Shown piece after piece: positions 4,390 to 44,052 of a stretch of DNA of 44,052 nucleotides. The stretch covers positions 1 through 44,052 of the IMG/VR virus record IMGVR_UViG_3300016461_000040; one strand, 5' to 3'. The stretch's first letter is position 1, and each line of letters starts with the position of its first letter. The position numbers and the translations under genes were made by a program. Under the pieces are notes generated by a model. That model was not told where the DNA came from. It did no database searches and was given only the letters and a program-made list of their open reading frames with translations. The stretch is from a virus.

Positions 4390-6743
4390 GCCAGCACCTC
4401 GAGGCAGTTGTTCTCGAAGTGGGCGAAGGCACCGACGATGTCTCCTTTGTCGAGCGGTGGGAACCTGACGCCCCAGCCATCCTGATCGCACGTCTCCACC
4501 GTGCCGCTCCGCCAGAGCAGCTTGTCCTGGCCAGGAGCGATGCCGGTGCGAAGGATGCGCACCTGGTCGCCGATCGTCGGCAGGGCCGCGTAAGGCTCGA
4601 GGTGGTCAGCTTCGACGACCAGGAGCTCGTGTCTACGCTCGCCGTGCTTCATGTGGACCCGGCCGTCGTCGCCGAGGCCGAACACACGTCCGACACGGCC
4701 GATGGATTTAAGGAACTTGCCACCCGGCCCCTTGCTGCCGGCCTTCACCTTGACCAGTTGGCCGATGCTGAAAGTAGGCGCGGGCGCGGCAGGTGCCGCG
4801 CCTTTCTCTTCGTTTGCGCCGATAGGCGCCTGGCTCTGGCTGTTCTTCTCGTCCTCGTGCGCCTGCAGCGCATCGGCGATATCACGCTGGGCCTGCTCCT
4901 TCGAGATCTTCTTCGCGCGTGGTGCTTGCGCCGCAGGCGGGGCGGTCGATTTTTTTGCCTTCTGCCCCTTCGCGGGCTTCGGCGCGGTCTTCTCCGCTTG
5001 CTTGGCCTGGGCTTCAGTCTCGGCCGCGCGCTCCTCGCTCTCGATCTCGCGCTTGGCCTCGGCCTTGACCTCGGCGAGGTCGACCTTCGTCATGTGCAGA
5101 ATCTCGTGCAGCACGCTGCGAGGGCCTTGGCGCTTTGCATTCTCGGGAGACCATGCGCGATAGCGCTCGGCGGCCAGGTGCAGCATGAAGCGCAGCAGCA
5201 GGCGAGGGACCTCCTCGTCGGGTGTTCTCGCGATGAGCTTGCTGATGTCGCCCTTTTTCTCGCCGAGGACGGCCTGCAGCGCCTGGGACGCTTCCCAGTT
5301 CTCGCCATCTTCATCGATCATCCATGCACGCAGAAGGTCCGGCGTGCCGGCGGCGGGCTCGCGCTGTAGGTACTCGTCAGCGAGCTTCAGCGCAGTGGCC
5401 TGCCAGCGGACCTCGAACTCGGGGCGTTCTTCGATGGGAAGCTGGGCCTGCTCGGCCTTGTTCTTGGCCTCCGCAGCCGCTTCCTTCTGCTTGCGTTTGG
5501 CAGACCTCGTGAGGTTGTTCGTGCGAACGATCTTCTTGACCTGGTCGATCGGCAGGACTTCGACGATGTCGCCTGTCTCGGGGTGTTTCGCCAGCACTGG
5601 CTCGGGGCAGTGTTTGCCGAGCGCTTTGCGCAGGGTCGGCCCGTCGATTTCGAGGCTGTAGTCCGGATAGCGGTCCAGCAGGTAGTGTCCGCGCAGCCAT
5701 TCGTTCGAATCGGCCTTGAGCATGCCCGCCGCTTGCTCCTGGTCGATGACTTTCTTGCCTTCGCGCTGGGCTTCTTCGAACCGCCGCTCGGCCGTCGTCT
5801 TCTCCTTGTCTTGGTAGCACGTCGGATCGGTGCAGATGTCTGCACTCTCGACGTCGGCAAAGAGGTCCGGGTTTGCGCCGGTACGCTTGGGGCAGTCTGC
5901 GCATGCGCCGGCGCTTTCGCACAGGGTCGCGTCCTTCACATCGAAGGGCGCACGCTTCAGCGGCAGCATGACGTTGGTCTGCAGCCACTCCTGGAATTCC
6001 TTGACGTTGAGAGCCCGGCCGTAGTTGTCGGAGCCGGTGGCCTGGCCGAGGGCCTTGATCTGCAGCTTGTCGACCGGAATGCGGGCGATCAACAGCGCCT
6101 TGCTGGCGTCGATCTGGCCGCGTCGAAACGCTTCTCGAGCGGCGGGGTTGAGGTCCAGTAGCTTGAGGCGGGCGTAGACATACTCGCGACTCTTGCCGAC
6201 TGCAGCGCCGAGCTCTCTCTTCGGAATGTCGGTCTCGGTCACCAGCCGATGGAAGCCTTCGGCCTCCTCAAGCTCGCTTAGATCGACGCGCTGGAGGTTT
6301 TCGATCAGCTGGATCTTGAGGACCTCTGCGTCCGTCAGACGGCGAGCGACTGCCGGGACCTTCGACATGCCGGCCAGTTTGCTGGCACGCCAGCGCCGTT
6401 CGCCTGAGACGAGCTCGTGTGTCTCGCGCTGGGTGCGGCCCAGCTTGCGGCTGGTTTCGTCCAGCCGCGAGGCCGGCAGCGGGCGCACCAGGATCGGCTG
6501 ATGGATGCCGCCCGCTCTGATGCTCTCTGCCAGCTCCGCGAGGTCTTCATCGTCGAAGACGGTACGCGGGTTCGTGAGGCTGGCGACGACCGCGTCGACG
6601 TCCAGGAGCAGGAGCTCGCCTGCATCTGTTTGCGCTGCCGCGAGTGCTGCGGCTTCAACCGTGGATTCTTGGGACATGGAGATCTCCGCGGCTGCGGCCG
6701 CATCGGTGGGGGTGGATGAAAAATGGGCGCCGGTCAGGTTCAT
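4386..6743 (-). CDS. Large ParB-like DNA-binding protein
   Basis: This 785-residue protein has a ParB/Spo0J N-terminal domain: NPRTVFDDEDLAELAESI and IHQPILVRP at residues 58-88, GERRWRASKLAG at 114-125, and QLIENLQRVDLSELEEAEGF at 145-164. A helix-turn-helix follows at about 172-195 (PKRELGAAVGKSREYVYARL). Cysteines 275, 281, 284, 304 and 309 form a possible zinc or Fe-S site. A charged Ala/Lys-rich linker leads to a C-terminal KOW/SH3-like region. ParB proteins bind palindromic centromere sites; no ParA is seen here. AGGAG lies six bases before ATG 6743, which overlaps the reverse transcriptase stop (ATGA). It may bind the 18-bp palindromes listed below (inference). Confidence 0.85.
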   Translation of the reverse strand: MNLTGAHFSSTPTDAAAAAEISMSQESTVEAAALAAAQTDAGELLLLDVDAVVASLTNPRTVFDDEDLAELAESIRAGGIHQPILVRPLPASRLDETSRKLGRTQRETHELVSGERRWRASKLAGMSKVPAVARRLTDAEVLKIQLIENLQRVDLSELEEAEGFHRLVTETDIPKRELGAAVGKSREYVYARLKLLDLNPAAREAFRRGQIDASKALLIARIPVDKLQIKALGQATGSDNYGRALNVKEFQEWLQTNVMLPLKRAPFDVKDATLCESAGACADCPKRTGANPDLFADVESADICTDPTCYQDKEKTTAERRFEEAQREGKKVIDQEQAAGMLKADSNEWLRGHYLLDRYPDYSLEIDGPTLRKALGKHCPEPVLAKHPETGDIVEVLPIDQVKKIVRTNNLTRSAKRKQKEAAAEAKNKAEQAQLPIEERPEFEVRWQATALKLADEYLQREPAAGTPDLLRAWMIDEDGENWEASQALQAVLGEKKGDISKLIARTPDEEVPRLLLRFMLHLAAERYRAWSPENAKRQGPRSVLHEILHMTKVDLAEVKAEAKREIESEERAAETEAQAKQAEKTAPKPAKGQKAKKSTAPPAAQAPRAKKISKEQAQRDIADALQAHEDEKNSQSQAPIGANEEKGAAPAAPAPTFSIGQLVKVKAGSKGPGGKFLKSIGRVGRVFGLGDDGRVHMKHGERRHELLVVEADHLEPYAALPTIGDQVRILRTGIAPGQDKLLWRSGTVETCDQDGWGVRFPPLDKGDIVGAFAHFENNCLEVLA

Positions 6744-8098
6744 GTTTTTCTCCTGAAGGCTCGGGTCAGGTCGCCGTCGACTGCGTGGCCACGCTTAAGC
6801 AGCGCACGCGCGATGGCGGCTTGTTCCTTGTGACTGGCGCCGGCCTGGCGCACCAGGCCGAAATAGCTGTTGCCGGTCGTGTAGACGTCTGCAGGCGCTG
6901 CCGCCTCGATCCGGCGCAGTGCGGAGCGCAGGGTGCGCGGCCTGGTGGTGCGACGCCATGGCTTGATCAGGTGGCCCACGAAGTCGATGCCGCGCGCCAC
7001 GGGCTGCAGGATGGTCTTGCTCGGGTTGAGCTGCAGGTGGAGTTCCTGGAGCTTCGCCTCGATGCGCTCGCGTGCCTGGTTGAGCCACTGCGGATCCGGA
7101 TGCACCATCACGAAGTCGTCGACGTAGCGGACGTAGTGCGGTGCCCGCAGCTGGTGCTTCGCGAACTGGTCGAGGTCATCGAGCAGCACGTTCGCAAAGA
7201 ACTGTGAGCTCAAGTTGCCGATCGGCAAGCCGTGGCCGTCCGGTGCATTGAACAGGCTCTTGTGTGGTGGCACGAGGGCGAGTTCGTGCGGCCGAGACCG
7301 GACCTCGACCTCTTGCCGTGGGTCGTGCATCAGCAGGACCTCGGCCAGCGATAGCCACCATGGTTCCGAGACTCGGCGCGCGAGCTGCTCGCGCAGGACC
7401 ATCTTGTCGATGCTCACGAAGAAGTTCGCAAGATCGCATTTCAGGTAGTACGCCGGCCGGCTCCAGTTGCGCGTGACGCTGCGCACCTGGTGCTCGAGGC
7501 GCCGGGCCGCGTACAGCGTGCCGCGGCCCGGGATGCAGGCGCAGCTGTCGGCAGTGAAGGCGGCATGGAAGCGCGGCGCGATGCGGTTGTACAGGAGGTG
7601 ATGGACGATGCGGTCGGGGAACCGCGCCGCCCAGACTTCACGAGGGCGCGGCCGTGTGATTACGAAGCAGATCGAGCGGCCGGGCCGATAGCGGCCGCTG
7701 GCCAGCTCGTCGTGCAGTTGGTAGAGATTGCTCTCGGCCATCGCCTCGAAGGCCTGCGCGCTGGCGCTGTTCCGCTTTGTGCGCCGGCAGTCGAGATAGG
7801 CGTCGATGAGCAGGGGGAACAGGTTGGAATCTGCGGACGGCAACGGCGCAACCCTCGTAGCTCTTGTGGTTGTTGTTCTGGTTGCCGTTGTTGAAGTTGC
7901 AATTCCAGGCGTAGGAGGCGCGCCCGTCGCGCTATGTAGGCCGTCCCGCCGAAGGCCGAGGCCGATCAGTGGGGAGGCTGCACCGGACGCGGCGCGCGCA
8001 GGCGTGCCCGTATCCGTCTCGTGCATGTCGGTGGACTTGTGGTCCAGCGGCGCGACCAGATTCACTATGCGCACGGGCGTGAGGGCCTTGACCGTCAT
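6740..8098 (-). CDS. DGR reverse transcriptase
   Basis: The RT-type core includes SGRYRPGRS and the catalytic Asp in LKCDLANFFVSID (D about residue 222). The DGR hallmark GLPIGNLSSQ is at about 291-300, YVRYVDDFVMVH carries the second catalytic pair (YVDD about 325-328), and LNPSKTILQ and IDFVGHL follow. Group II introns and retroviruses have other residues in place of IGNLSSQ. The conserved N-terminus of DGR RTs (NLFPLLIDAYLDCRRTKR) begins only near 7825. ATG 8098 overlaps the avd stop (ATGA) and stays open through the TR, giving 452 residues. A TTG at 7843 inside the TR, with GAGGG upstream, would give 367. The stop overlaps the ParB-like start. Confidence 0.93.
   Translation of the reverse strand: MTVKALTPVRIVNLVAPLDHKSTDMHETDTGTPARAASGAASPLIGLGLRRDGLHSATGAPPTPGIATSTTATRTTTTRATRVAPLPSADSNLFPLLIDAYLDCRRTKRNSASAQAFEAMAESNLYQLHDELASGRYRPGRSICFVITRPRPREVWAARFPDRIVHHLLYNRIAPRFHAAFTADSCACIPGRGTLYAARRLEHQVRSVTRNWSRPAYYLKCDLANFFVSIDKMVLREQLARRVSEPWWLSLAEVLLMHDPRQEVEVRSRPHELALVPPHKSLFNAPDGHGLPIGNLSSQFFANVLLDDLDQFAKHQLRAPHYVRYVDDFVMVHPDPQWLNQARERIEAKLQELHLQLNPSKTILQPVARGIDFVGHLIKPWRRTTRPRTLRSALRRIEAAAPADVYTTGNSYFGLVRQAGASHKEQAAIARALLKRGHAVDGDLTRAFRRKT
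7833..7920 (-). repeat. DGR template repeat (TR)
   Basis: This is an 88-bp non-mutated copy of the VRs. In the VR frame it reads ASYAWNCNFNNGNQNNNHKS followed by YEGCAVAVR. Eight asparagine codons (one AAT, seven AAC) mark the mutable sites; AAC codons let adenine mutagenesis reach many amino acids. The last 35-40 bases are identical in TR and both VRs and would hold the initiation-of-mutagenic-homing part. The TR sits between avd and the RT core and is also crossed by the long RT reading frame in a different phase. Confidence 0.95.
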
Positions 8099-8466
8099 GC
8101 TGCAGGCGCCCTGTTCTTGGCGTTCTTGAGCCACCCGCCGGCCTGCTTTCCGATACTGCCCAGCAACTCGATGGACTCGGCCCAAAGCTTCGGAGAGAGG
8201 TGCTTGCGATTGAACGTCACGCGCAGCATCACCGTCACGGCGCGCTGCTTCGTGAGCACCTCCTCGAGGTAGGCCGCGCGCGCATGCATGTCGTGCTGAG
8301 CGGCGTTGGCGAGGGCCATGAGCTCGAGCAGGTCGACACAGTGCTGCGTGATCTTTTCGCCCAGGATGCGCTTGAGGCTGCGCGGCATCTGCTCCTGCAC
8401 GCTCACTGCGAGATCGAGCAGCCGCATGCCGGTGCGGTGGATGGGGGTATCGGAGTGCATTGCCAT
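8095..8466 (-). CDS. avd: Avd-like DGR accessory protein
   Basis: This 123-residue basic, all-helical protein fits the Avd four-helix bundle in size, composition and position. Avd forms a pentamer that binds the RT and DGR RNA and is needed for mutagenic retrohoming in BPP-1. Helices are visible around residues 15-35 (LLDLAVSVQEQMPRSLKRIL), 38-60, 60-90 and 95-115, with many Lys/Arg. It lies between the VR1 gene and the TR as in BPP-1, and its stop overlaps an ATG in the RT frame (ATGA). ATG 8466 is chosen; ATG 8460 is an alternative. Confidence 0.85.
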   Translation of the reverse strand: MAMHSDTPIHRTGMRLLDLAVSVQEQMPRSLKRILGEKITQHCVDLLELMALANAAQHDMHARAAYLEEVLTKQRAVTVMLRVTFNRKHLSPKLWAESIELLGSIGKQAGGWLKNAKNRAPAA

Positions 8467-8474
8467 GGGTGGGC

Positions 8475-8963
8475 TCAGCTCAAAAGGATTGAAGGACCGA
8501 AGGGTTCAAACCCTGCGGACGGCAACGGCGCAACCCTCGTAGCTCTTGTGGGTGCTGAGCTGGTTGCCGTGGAGAAGTCGCAATACCAGGCGTAGGAGGC
8601 GTCCTCTTCATGTGCCTGGCTCGACCAGTGCCATGCGGCCTCGAGGTGAGGCTTGCAGTTCGCGAAGAGCAGCGCCTGTTCCTGGCGGTCCGGCAGGACG
8701 CCGCCGACTTCGGTCGCCCACTTCATGGCGTCGTCCCAGTTGAGACGCTCACTGGGGCGCGCCGCCATGAGGACCAGGTGGTGCTCGATCCGGCCGGTTT
8801 CGTCGAGCACGGCGCCGGCGTAGTGCTCACCGGCGCGCAGCTCGATGTGGGTCTCGGGCGTCGTGATGGTGGTCACGATCGCTTCCGCGCGGAGCTGCAG
8901 CTCCTTGATCATCTTGTCCAGCTCGGCCTGGCGGGCCTTGACGGCTTCGAGTGTGGTGGTCAT
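8475..8963 (-). CDS. DGR variable protein 1 (frameshifted in VR1)
   Basis: This 162-residue paralogue of the neighbouring variable protein shares an LNWDDAMKWATEVGGVLP-type motif, ALLFANCKP, WHW and ASYAW, a C-type-lectin/DUF1566-like end. It has an extra N-terminal coiled coil (TLEAVKARQAELDKMIKELQ) and no signal peptide or membrane segment. VR1 has lost one base relative to the TR, so the frame leaves SYAWYCDF and runs to PTRATRVAPLPSAG and a stop at 8475. Restoring the base would end the protein as AVAVRRV at 8506, directly after the VR, as expected for this family. The present C-terminus is probably non-native. Confidence 0.85.
   Translation of the reverse strand: MTTTLEAVKARQAELDKMIKELQLRAEAIVTTITTPETHIELRAGEHYAGAVLDETGRIEHHLVLMAARPSERLNWDDAMKWATEVGGVLPDRQEQALLFANCKPHLEAAWHWSSQAHEEDASYAWYCDFSTATSSAPTRATRVAPLPSAGFEPFGPSILLS
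8501..8514 (-). other. Small hairpin just 3' of VR1
   Basis: On the coding strand AGGGTTTGAACCCT follows the VR directly and can form a 5-6 bp stem. BPP-1 has a hairpin/cruciform just after VR that helps homing. VR2 has no equally clear hairpin, so the role is uncertain. Confidence 0.4.
8513..8601 (-). repeat. DGR variable repeat 1 (VR1)
   Basis: This 89-bp copy of the TR differs by eight substitutions, all at TR adenines on the coding strand, plus loss of one adenine in the second codon of the first AAC-AAC pair. Codon changes include AAT to TAT, AAC to GAC, AAC to CTC, AAC to AGC and AAC to ACC. The 3' part is identical to the TR. Confidence 0.93.
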
Positions 8964-8994
8964 TGATGGGCTTTCGGAGAAAAGGACTGAAGGA

Positions 8995-9393
8995 CTAAGC
9001 GGCGAGGGGAATCCGGCGGACGGCAACGGCGCAACCCTCGTAGCTCTTGTGGCTGCTGGTCTGGTAGCCGTGGCCGAAGTGGCAATGCCAGGCGTAGGAG
9101 GCGCCATCGGCTTCACAGGTCCAGTGCCAGCGAGGCGTGAGCTGCGGCTTCAGATTCGCGTAGAGGAGGGCGGCGACGGGGCGGGAGGGCAGTTCGCCGC
9201 CCTGTTCGGCGGCCCACGCCATCGCGGCTTTCCAATCTACGTCCTGGGCCTTGGCGGGCAACAGGACGACGGCGACATGCTTGCCGTCCGCTGTGCTGGT
9301 GAGGCCGGCGAAAGCGCCTCCCTCGAGTTGGTCGCCGATGGGCGGCAGCGAGGCGAGGGAAACGATGGGCGTGGTTGCGGATTCAGCGGGCAC
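8995..9393 (-). CDS. DGR variable protein 2
   Basis: This 132-residue protein has a variable C-terminus. The scaffold contains VDWKAAMAWAAEQGGELPSR, AALLYANLKP and PRWHWTCEADGASYAW, then the diversified stretch HCHFGHGYQTSSHK and the constant YEGCAVAVRR. The pattern resembles DUF1566/Lcl-type C-type-lectin folds, the fold class used by DGR targets. There is no signal peptide, membrane segment or virion-anchoring domain, so a cytoplasmic product is likely. GTG 9393 is five bases after AAAGGAG and overlaps the preceding gene. Its binding partner is unknown. Confidence 0.88.
   Translation of the reverse strand: MPAESATTPIVSLASLPPIGDQLEGGAFAGLTSTADGKHVAVVLLPAKAQDVDWKAAMAWAAEQGGELPSRPVAALLYANLKPQLTPRWHWTCEADGASYAWHCHFGHGYQTSSHKSYEGCAVAVRRIPLAA
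9016..9103 (-). repeat. DGR variable repeat 2 (VR2)
   Basis: This 88-bp copy has the same length as the TR, with nine substitutions, all at adenines of the TR coding strand. The resulting changes are N to H (three times), N to G, Y and T, and N to S (twice). No substitution falls on C, G or T. The frame is intact and the stop follows seven codons after the repeat. Confidence 0.95.
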
Positions 9394-43507: not shown

Positions 43508-44052
43508 GTGCGATCGCGGGCCTTTTCGGCCTGGTGCCCGGTTGGCTCTGGGCTGGCCTGATGGCCGCCAGCGTCCTCCATGGGTGCTGGGTTGGCCACC
43601 AGCGCGACGGCGCCGTCAACGGGCTGCGCGACCTGCAGGCGAAGGTGGCGGAGCAGGAGTCCGTACGCGCGCAGGTCGCGTCGGCGGCCAACGCGAATTT
43701 CCGCAAGTTCGAACATCAACAGGCGGCTTCGGCCGCGGATCTGGAAAATGCAAATCAAACCGCCAAGCTGGCTGCGGGCACTGTCGATCGCAGCAATCGT
43801 GATGATGTTGACGGGTTGCGGCGCGATGTCGCCCGGCTCGACGCCGCCGCCCGAAGTGGTGGGCTGCCCAGCGCCGCCGCCTATCCCCGCGAGCTTGCGG
43901 CAAGCCGGCGAGCGGCTGAAAACGCAAGAGGACTATTCGTTGCGTGCGCAGCGGAATATCAGGCAGTGGCGGGAGAAGCTCGGCGAGACGTCATCGACCT
44001 CGGCACCGGAGTGAGCTACGCGAACCTTGTGCACACGCCTGCACCACCATGA
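43504..44052 (+). CDS. Rz-like inner-membrane spanin
   Basis: One N-terminal membrane helix (FGLVPGWLWAGLMAASVL) is followed by a long charged coiled coil, the layout of i-spanins, in this 182-residue protein. ATG 43504 overlaps the endolysin stop (ATGA). The stop codon is the last codon of the window, and the C-terminal NLVHTPAPP contains the last palindrome copy. Confidence 0.8.
   Translation: MSAIAGLFGLVPGWLWAGLMAASVLHGCWVGHQRDGAVNGLRDLQAKVAEQESVRAQVASAANANFRKFEHQQAASAADLENANQTAKLAAGTVDRSNRDDVDGLRRDVARLDAAARSGGLPSAAAYPRELAASRRAAENARGLFVACAAEYQAVAGEARRDVIDLGTGVSYANLVHTPAPP
43748..44014 (+). CDS. Rz1-like outer-membrane spanin, nested
   Basis: This 88-residue lipoprotein lies wholly inside the Rz gene in another frame. 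The signal peptide ALSIAAIVMMLTGC has a LTGC lipobox. A proline-rich segment follows (GSTPPPEVVGCPAPPPIPAS), then a helix. This is the classic o-spanin arrangement; together with Rz it fuses inner and outer membranes at lysis. Confidence 0.85.
   Translation: MQIKPPSWLRALSIAAIVMMLTGCGAMSPGSTPPPEVVGCPAPPPIPASLRQAGERLKTQEDYSLRAQRNIRQWREKLGETSSTSAPE
44028..44045. repeat. 18-bp palindrome site (3 mismatches)
   Basis: TGTGCACACGCCTGCACC, in the last codons of the Rz gene. Confidence 0.55.

Follow-up and report, generated by a model that had tools for sequence, protein, structure and literature searches.

The RT-15 RNA as a putative 5' leader of the template RNA in a phage diversity-generating retroelement

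In the BPP-1 diversity-generating retroelement (DGR), the spacer 3' of the template repeat (TR) folds and recruits bRT-Avd, while cDNA synthesis is primed by an internal adenine at the TR 3' junction and ends in the end of avd (PMC12875486). The locus considered here, at positions 6740-9393 (minus strand) of a complete virus record of 44,052 bases which we refer to as the window, raises the question of how the template RNA of a DGR may be arranged where there is almost no such 3' spacer. That the locus is a DGR had been proposed in an initial annotation and is well supported, since it holds a reverse transcriptase (RT), an Avd protein, an adenine-rich TR and two adenine-specifically diverged variable repeats (VRs) in paralogous lectin-like genes. 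There is nothing unusual in the DGR itself, and Burkholderia phage Magia is among the relatives already annotated as carrying one.

The RT (6740-7843, the upper end being approximate; all features given below likewise lie on the minus strand) is an open reading frame with the IGNLSSQ and YVDD motifs that had been reported for it, and it matches phrog_1423 (E = 2e-110). Its best solved relative is the BPP-1 bRT (E = 5e-34), with group II RTs far behind (2e-10), and its matches to group II and retron models fall far below their cut-offs, so that by match scores, rather than in a tree, it lies nearest to bRT and not with retrons or group II introns. The start of the RT is uncertain, and may be either a TTG at 7843 behind a GAGG, within the TR 3' end, or a position further up the open frame; nor is the start conserved among 95 related loci. 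A long open reading frame running through the RNA upstream and the TR, read as a general N-terminal extension of the RT, was rejected because 28 of these 95 loci have an in-frame stop within that stretch and one further locus has a stop after the TR. The product of avd (8095-8466, 123 residues) was rightly called Avd-like: it clearly matches phrog_3206, the Avd protein of DGRs (E = 3e-22), passes the PF22296 bAvd cut-off narrowly (E = 2e-10; 41.3 bits against 40) and scores under the cut-off of the NCBIfam DivGenRetAVD model. The order target-target-avd-TR-RT had also been recognised, and corresponds to target-avd-TR-RT in BPP-1, although the RNA part of the locus is laid out differently.

The AAC-rich TR occupies 7831-7921, and the two VRs, VR1 (9013-9104) and VR2 (8513-8601), differ from it by ten and eight substitutions, respectively. 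When the three are aligned, all 18 substitutions fall on template adenines, for which the chance, given 25 adenines among 90 sites, is 6e-7 for VR1 and 1e-5 for VR2; VR2 has additionally lost one base. No further VR was found in a search of the window. The same strict bias, which had been named as the property that would distinguish a DGR, runs through 193 VRs from 96 related loci, where 2,230 of 5,352 adenine sites carry a change (1,125 A to G, 760 A to T and 345 A to C) compared with 39 of 12,901 other sites. Two VRs are present in 72 of the 96 loci and three in 14 (including L024:1781, L025:2794, L029:1055, L073:1788, L103 and L136); these third VRs are often several kb distant, in genes of different make-up, some of which are fused to coiled-coil-like stretches. 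Between close relatives, whose TRs are 0 to 4 bases apart (17 in one pair), the VRs differ at 283 of 576 adenine sites and at only three of 1,393 others, and VR1 of the window differs from that of its relative L007 at 10 of 24 adenine sites and at none of 63 others. This turnover suggests that the DGR family is active on short time scales. An earlier description of the element as active or recently active holds in so far as such comparisons support recent activity in the lineage of the window, from which activity in this very phage may be inferred.

Target gene 1 (8995-9393), which ends in VR1, encodes a single domain of 132 residues whose predicted model is confident outside the VR. The predicted fold is C-type-lectin-like, of the Lcl_C/DUF1566 type, with the Lcl C-terminal domain of Legionella as the best match (Z 8.8), and PF07603 is matched by 23 of 38 homologues; a Foldseek search alone returned no significant match for the target (best E 0.41). 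Target gene 2 (8475-8963) is its paralog, as the initial annotation had it, and likewise carries a VR. The two VRs are not of matching length as had been stated, however, because VR2 is short by one base at a TR adenine position, and from that point onward, over a final ~35 residues, target 2 has lost its frame in the window sequence. Its counterparts in relatives are in frame. Only four indels occur in the 193 VRs of the 96 loci, three of them insertions of 3 nt and the fourth, the single frameshift, being that of the window VR2; it may reflect either a genuine faulty copy or a misassembly of a variable region.

The stretch between avd and the TR, for which the earlier reading had no feature, is an RT-15 RNA (RF03018; 7920-8111). 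The Rfam match covers the full length of the model (positions 1-192) and scores 153.4 bits against a gathering score of 82. RT-15 is present in 24 of the 26 relatives scanned with Rfam, the exceptions being L018, which is cut off before its RT-15 region, and L023, a distant partial RT match; it is also present in all five reference phage records tested and, by profile, in more than 100 loci. Two candidate relatives were set aside (L023 and L031), as their RT matches cover only part of the query and have no RT-15, TR or VR nearby. The TR can be located independently of the RNA through an adenine-tolerant match to the VRs, and in nearly all loci it then starts no more than ~10 nt from the RT-15 3' end; in the few loci with wider spacing, one of the VR matches is truncated or broken. 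Given that RT-15 abuts the TR in this way, we conclude from the comparison of loci that it is a structured 5' leader of a DGR template RNA. In one locus, L029 (from a Rubrivivax MAG), a DNA methylase gene (PF01555, 4921-5898) stands between the TR and the RT, which are ~1 kb apart, and this indicates that RT-15 and TR form a unit of their own. L030, from the same assembly, shares the DGR region of L029.

The Rfam model of RT-15 leaves a conserved UGAAUCUGG unpaired, and the complement of the core of this linker, CAGAUUC, is found at the TR 3' boundary. In the window the GAAUCUG of the linker lies at 8057-8063 and the CAGAUUC at 7827-7833, as the putative 5' and 3' strands of a leader-TR helix. 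Over 96 loci, 90.8% of the cells in eight pairs are paired, compared with 11-49% in registers slid by 1 to 4, and when partners were shuffled the mean was 660 against 697 observed, with none of 2,000 shuffles as high. Since shuffles ignore relatedness, changes were also counted on a 95-row RT tree. At pair 13-10 there are three changes per side, all three of them joint, and at pair 8-15 there are eight and seven, with eight joint and all four Watson-Crick types in use; altogether some ten coordinated compensatory changes are seen in the helix. Among the top 90 rows of a scan of all columns, the helix supplies the sole leader-to-downstream pair that is at least 95% paired, the other such pairs being within RT-15. 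Free-energy folding of the window lends no support to structure or helix (z -0.05), the folding probability of the five core pairs averages 0.48 over loci and is 0.07 for the window, and 38 of the 96 loci have an A-C mismatch at one inner position. Covariation nevertheless demonstrates, in so far as comparative evidence can, a pairing between the GAAUCUG linker of RT-15 and CAGAUUC at the TR 3' boundary.

A second element absent from the earlier reading lies downstream of the VRs, where 8-nt repeats with the consensus CTTCRRTC follow both VR1 (TTAGTCCTTCAGTCCTTTTC, 8977-9000) and VR2 (CCCTTCGGTCCTTCAATC, 8487-8510) as candidate target-site elements. Across the related loci there are 206 matches to CTTCRRTC in the 8.7 kb after VRs and 23 in 1,791 kb elsewhere. 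A longer, 19-nt repeat pattern is matched with at most four mismatches by 134 of 192 VR flanks, whereas none of 96 TR flanks matches it with fewer than six; as the pattern was derived from VR flanks, it is the contrast with the TR, and with remote VRs, that constitutes the real test. The repeats also lie 3' of the third, remote VRs in L024, L025 and L029. The cruciform that follows the VR in BPP-1 has been proposed as a conserved requirement (PMC3240598). No GC-rich hairpin or cruciform (7-10 bp, 4-nt loop) follows VR1 or VR2 of the window, and in the window's clade one is found after 1 of 59 VRs, below the 12% background; distant clades often have a GC hairpin, together with weaker repeats. 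The 8-nt repeats could mark a VR as recipient, as opposed to the TR as donor.

The comparison with BPP-1 brings out what the two arrangements share and where they part. Both have the target-avd-TR-RT order, homologous RT and Avd proteins, adenine-only mutagenesis, a lectin-like target and a possible RNA pairing at the TR 3' junction. In BPP-1, however, the structured RNA is RF03022 (Phage_DGR, 2750-2882) and lies 3' of the TR, avd stands directly against the TR and a 144-nt spacer separates TR and RT, whereas in the window RT-15 lies 5' of the TR and almost no 3' spacer is left. The window has no match to RF03022, and its RT frame begins at the TR end with no structured TR-RT spacer; conversely, RT-15 was not found in BPP-1 or 62 related loci. 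The distance from the TR to the RT N-terminal motif has a median of 37 nt in RT-15 loci and 154 nt in BPP-1-type loci. BPP-1 further differs in having one TR-linked tail-protein target rather than two early-region targets, and a GC cruciform after the VR in place of the 8-nt repeats. In the BPP-1 spacer, AGGUGGU, just before the primer adenine (which we take to be A56 of the spacer), can pair with AUCACCU at the TR end, and across 37 BPP-1-type loci this spacer/TR-end pairing beats shuffled partners (2 of 500 as good, in a control that ignores relatedness). The VRs of BPP-1-type loci (L139-L200) end in GACCACCTG, which is fully complementary to the spacer AGGUGGUC beside the primer adenine, the TR carrying a variant; this complementarity might serve target recognition.

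Since the RT-15 helix would sit at the junction at which BPP-1 is primed, reached from the other side, the simplest reading may be a permuted RNA in which the priming domain has come to precede the template instead of following it. RT and Avd would bind the RT-15 fold, and the helix between linker and TR would place a duplex of RNA at the 3' junction of the TR, a task that falls to the 3' spacer in BPP-1. Synthesis of cDNA would start at this junction, probably from a nucleotide just 3' of GAAUCUG, proceed back across the TR, misincorporating opposite adenines, and stop at the base of RT-15, whereupon the cDNA would replace VR1 or VR2, the recipients being marked by the repeats 3' of them. We infer, then, that the leader helix primes the cDNA and that the repeats guide homing. 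To the whole of this reading, a DGR whose template RNA is permuted, situated in the leftward early operon of a phage with a contractile tail and working by the mechanism proposed here, we assign a probability of roughly 0.7. The broader generalisation, that RT-15 DGRs constitute a class with a permuted RNA (an RT-binding and priming domain before the template, with GAAUCUG as primer strand) and that the repeats replace the cruciform in the window's clade, we regard as evenly poised.

Other functions for the helix need to be weighed against priming. It may merely close the template loop, protect it or mark the TR ends, with cDNA primed otherwise, for example from nicked target DNA; the older model of BPP-1 had synthesis primed by the target (PMC3240598), and the support for the helix is structural. 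We consider this somewhat doubtful, as the current account of BPP-1 is self-priming from the internal adenine at the TR 3' junction (PMC12875486), the RT-15 helix sits at the equivalent junction, and the spacers of BPP-1-type loci pair with the TR end beside the primer site better than shuffled partners do. A further possibility is that the helix acts as a translational switch, hiding the ribosome-binding site or start of the RT at the TR 3' end and having no role in priming. The GAGG and TTG of the window, 9 nt apart within the TR 3' end and near the helix, would fit such a switch. Yet L029, in which the methylase gene separates TR from RT, retains the helix with a compensatory change, and the helix also persists in L016, L017 and L019, where an ATG 42-43 nt downstream serves as the RT start; with the RT start itself so variable among loci, a switch of this kind appears distinctly unlikely.

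The repeats and the state of the element itself also admit other explanations. Repeats that lie mostly between a stop codon and the start of the next gene could be ordinary intergenic signals of these phages, for transcription or translation, rather than homing sites. We hold this to be unlikely given that their density after VRs, counted over both strands of the loci, is ~1,850 times that elsewhere, and that they follow remote VRs in other gene contexts while missing after the TR. It might also be argued that the element is decaying in this phage and that the VR2 frameshift, the sole one in 193 VRs, is a sign of lost function. This we find very improbable, as RT and Avd are both intact and retain every motif, VR1 keeps its frame and differs from that of L007 at adenines only, and the frameshift could be an assembly error or a passing bad copy, to be overwritten by later homing. 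The permuted template RNA, with its leader helix and landing repeats, remains our preferred reading of the locus.

The setting of the element is that of a phage. Rightward late genes from ~20 kb encode terminase, portal, protease, capsid, tail sheath, tape measure and baseplate, together with fibre, fibre assembly and endolysin functions, a set that identifies a contractile-tailed phage, and the left third of the window is a leftward operon with ParB in which the element lies. The window opens with an ATG at position 1 and closes with a TGA at 44052, so that its ends look cut at gene borders and the record may be a trimmed provirus. Bacterial genomes seldom carry RT-15 above the cut-off (1 of 369 in a class sample and 7 of 301 in a family sample), which is consistent with a phage element; one Acidovorax MAG, the genome of L025, holds two different RT-15 elements, on separate contigs. 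In annotated relatives the neighbours of the DGR are replication, recombination or modification genes (RecT, ssDNA-binding protein, exonuclease, methylases), and the VR-bearing target genes are situated in the early region. The targets of the main viral DGR clades are mostly tail proteins according to a large survey (PMC8144416). Here, where the targets are small single-domain lectins among early rather than tail genes, we would tentatively favour binding to something in or on the infected cell over a role as tail fibres.

Among known systems, Magia (MT701587) comes close to the window, with an RT-15 leader, a TR, Avd and two proximal VR-bearing genes, an RT ~60% identical to that of the window, and an existing annotation as a DGR with a C-type lectin target. 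It differs in that its pairing strands are CAAUCUG and CAGAUCG, while its RT-15 is unannotated and its second target labelled 'hypothetical'. In Pseudomonas phage Cruim01 (PP179333) an annotated RT-15 (RF03018) likewise adjoins a TR with two VRs. Shewanella phage vB_Sb_QDWS (OK094664, L034) and Hujiaoplasma phage zrk29-1 (OP650936) have identical record length and match statistics and so look like one phage with two very different recorded hosts. The Bacuni phages of Bacteroides uniformis resemble the window in carrying a DGR with two DUF1566-type targets, but one of these is remote and the targets resemble fimbrial tip proteins (PMC8143477). Rfam names RT-15 only by its nearby RT, and its entry includes neither a TR nor the leader-TR helix. 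A text search of the literature found no link between RT-15 and DGRs, no covarying helix and no VR repeats; as the 2017 paper that named RT-15 lay outside this search, the novelty of the three is provisional.

Linking RT-15 to DGRs places an orphan Rfam RNA within a machine that is already known. With a second arrangement of the template RNA, comparison can ask which parts of the RNA are needed for self-primed, adenine-specific cDNA synthesis. Laboratory work on targeted protein diversification could also find a convenient tool in a leader-template RNA that is short and has defined landing repeats. That two small, hypervariable lectins are encoded in an early operon further prompts one to ask what, besides tail fibres, phages diversify.
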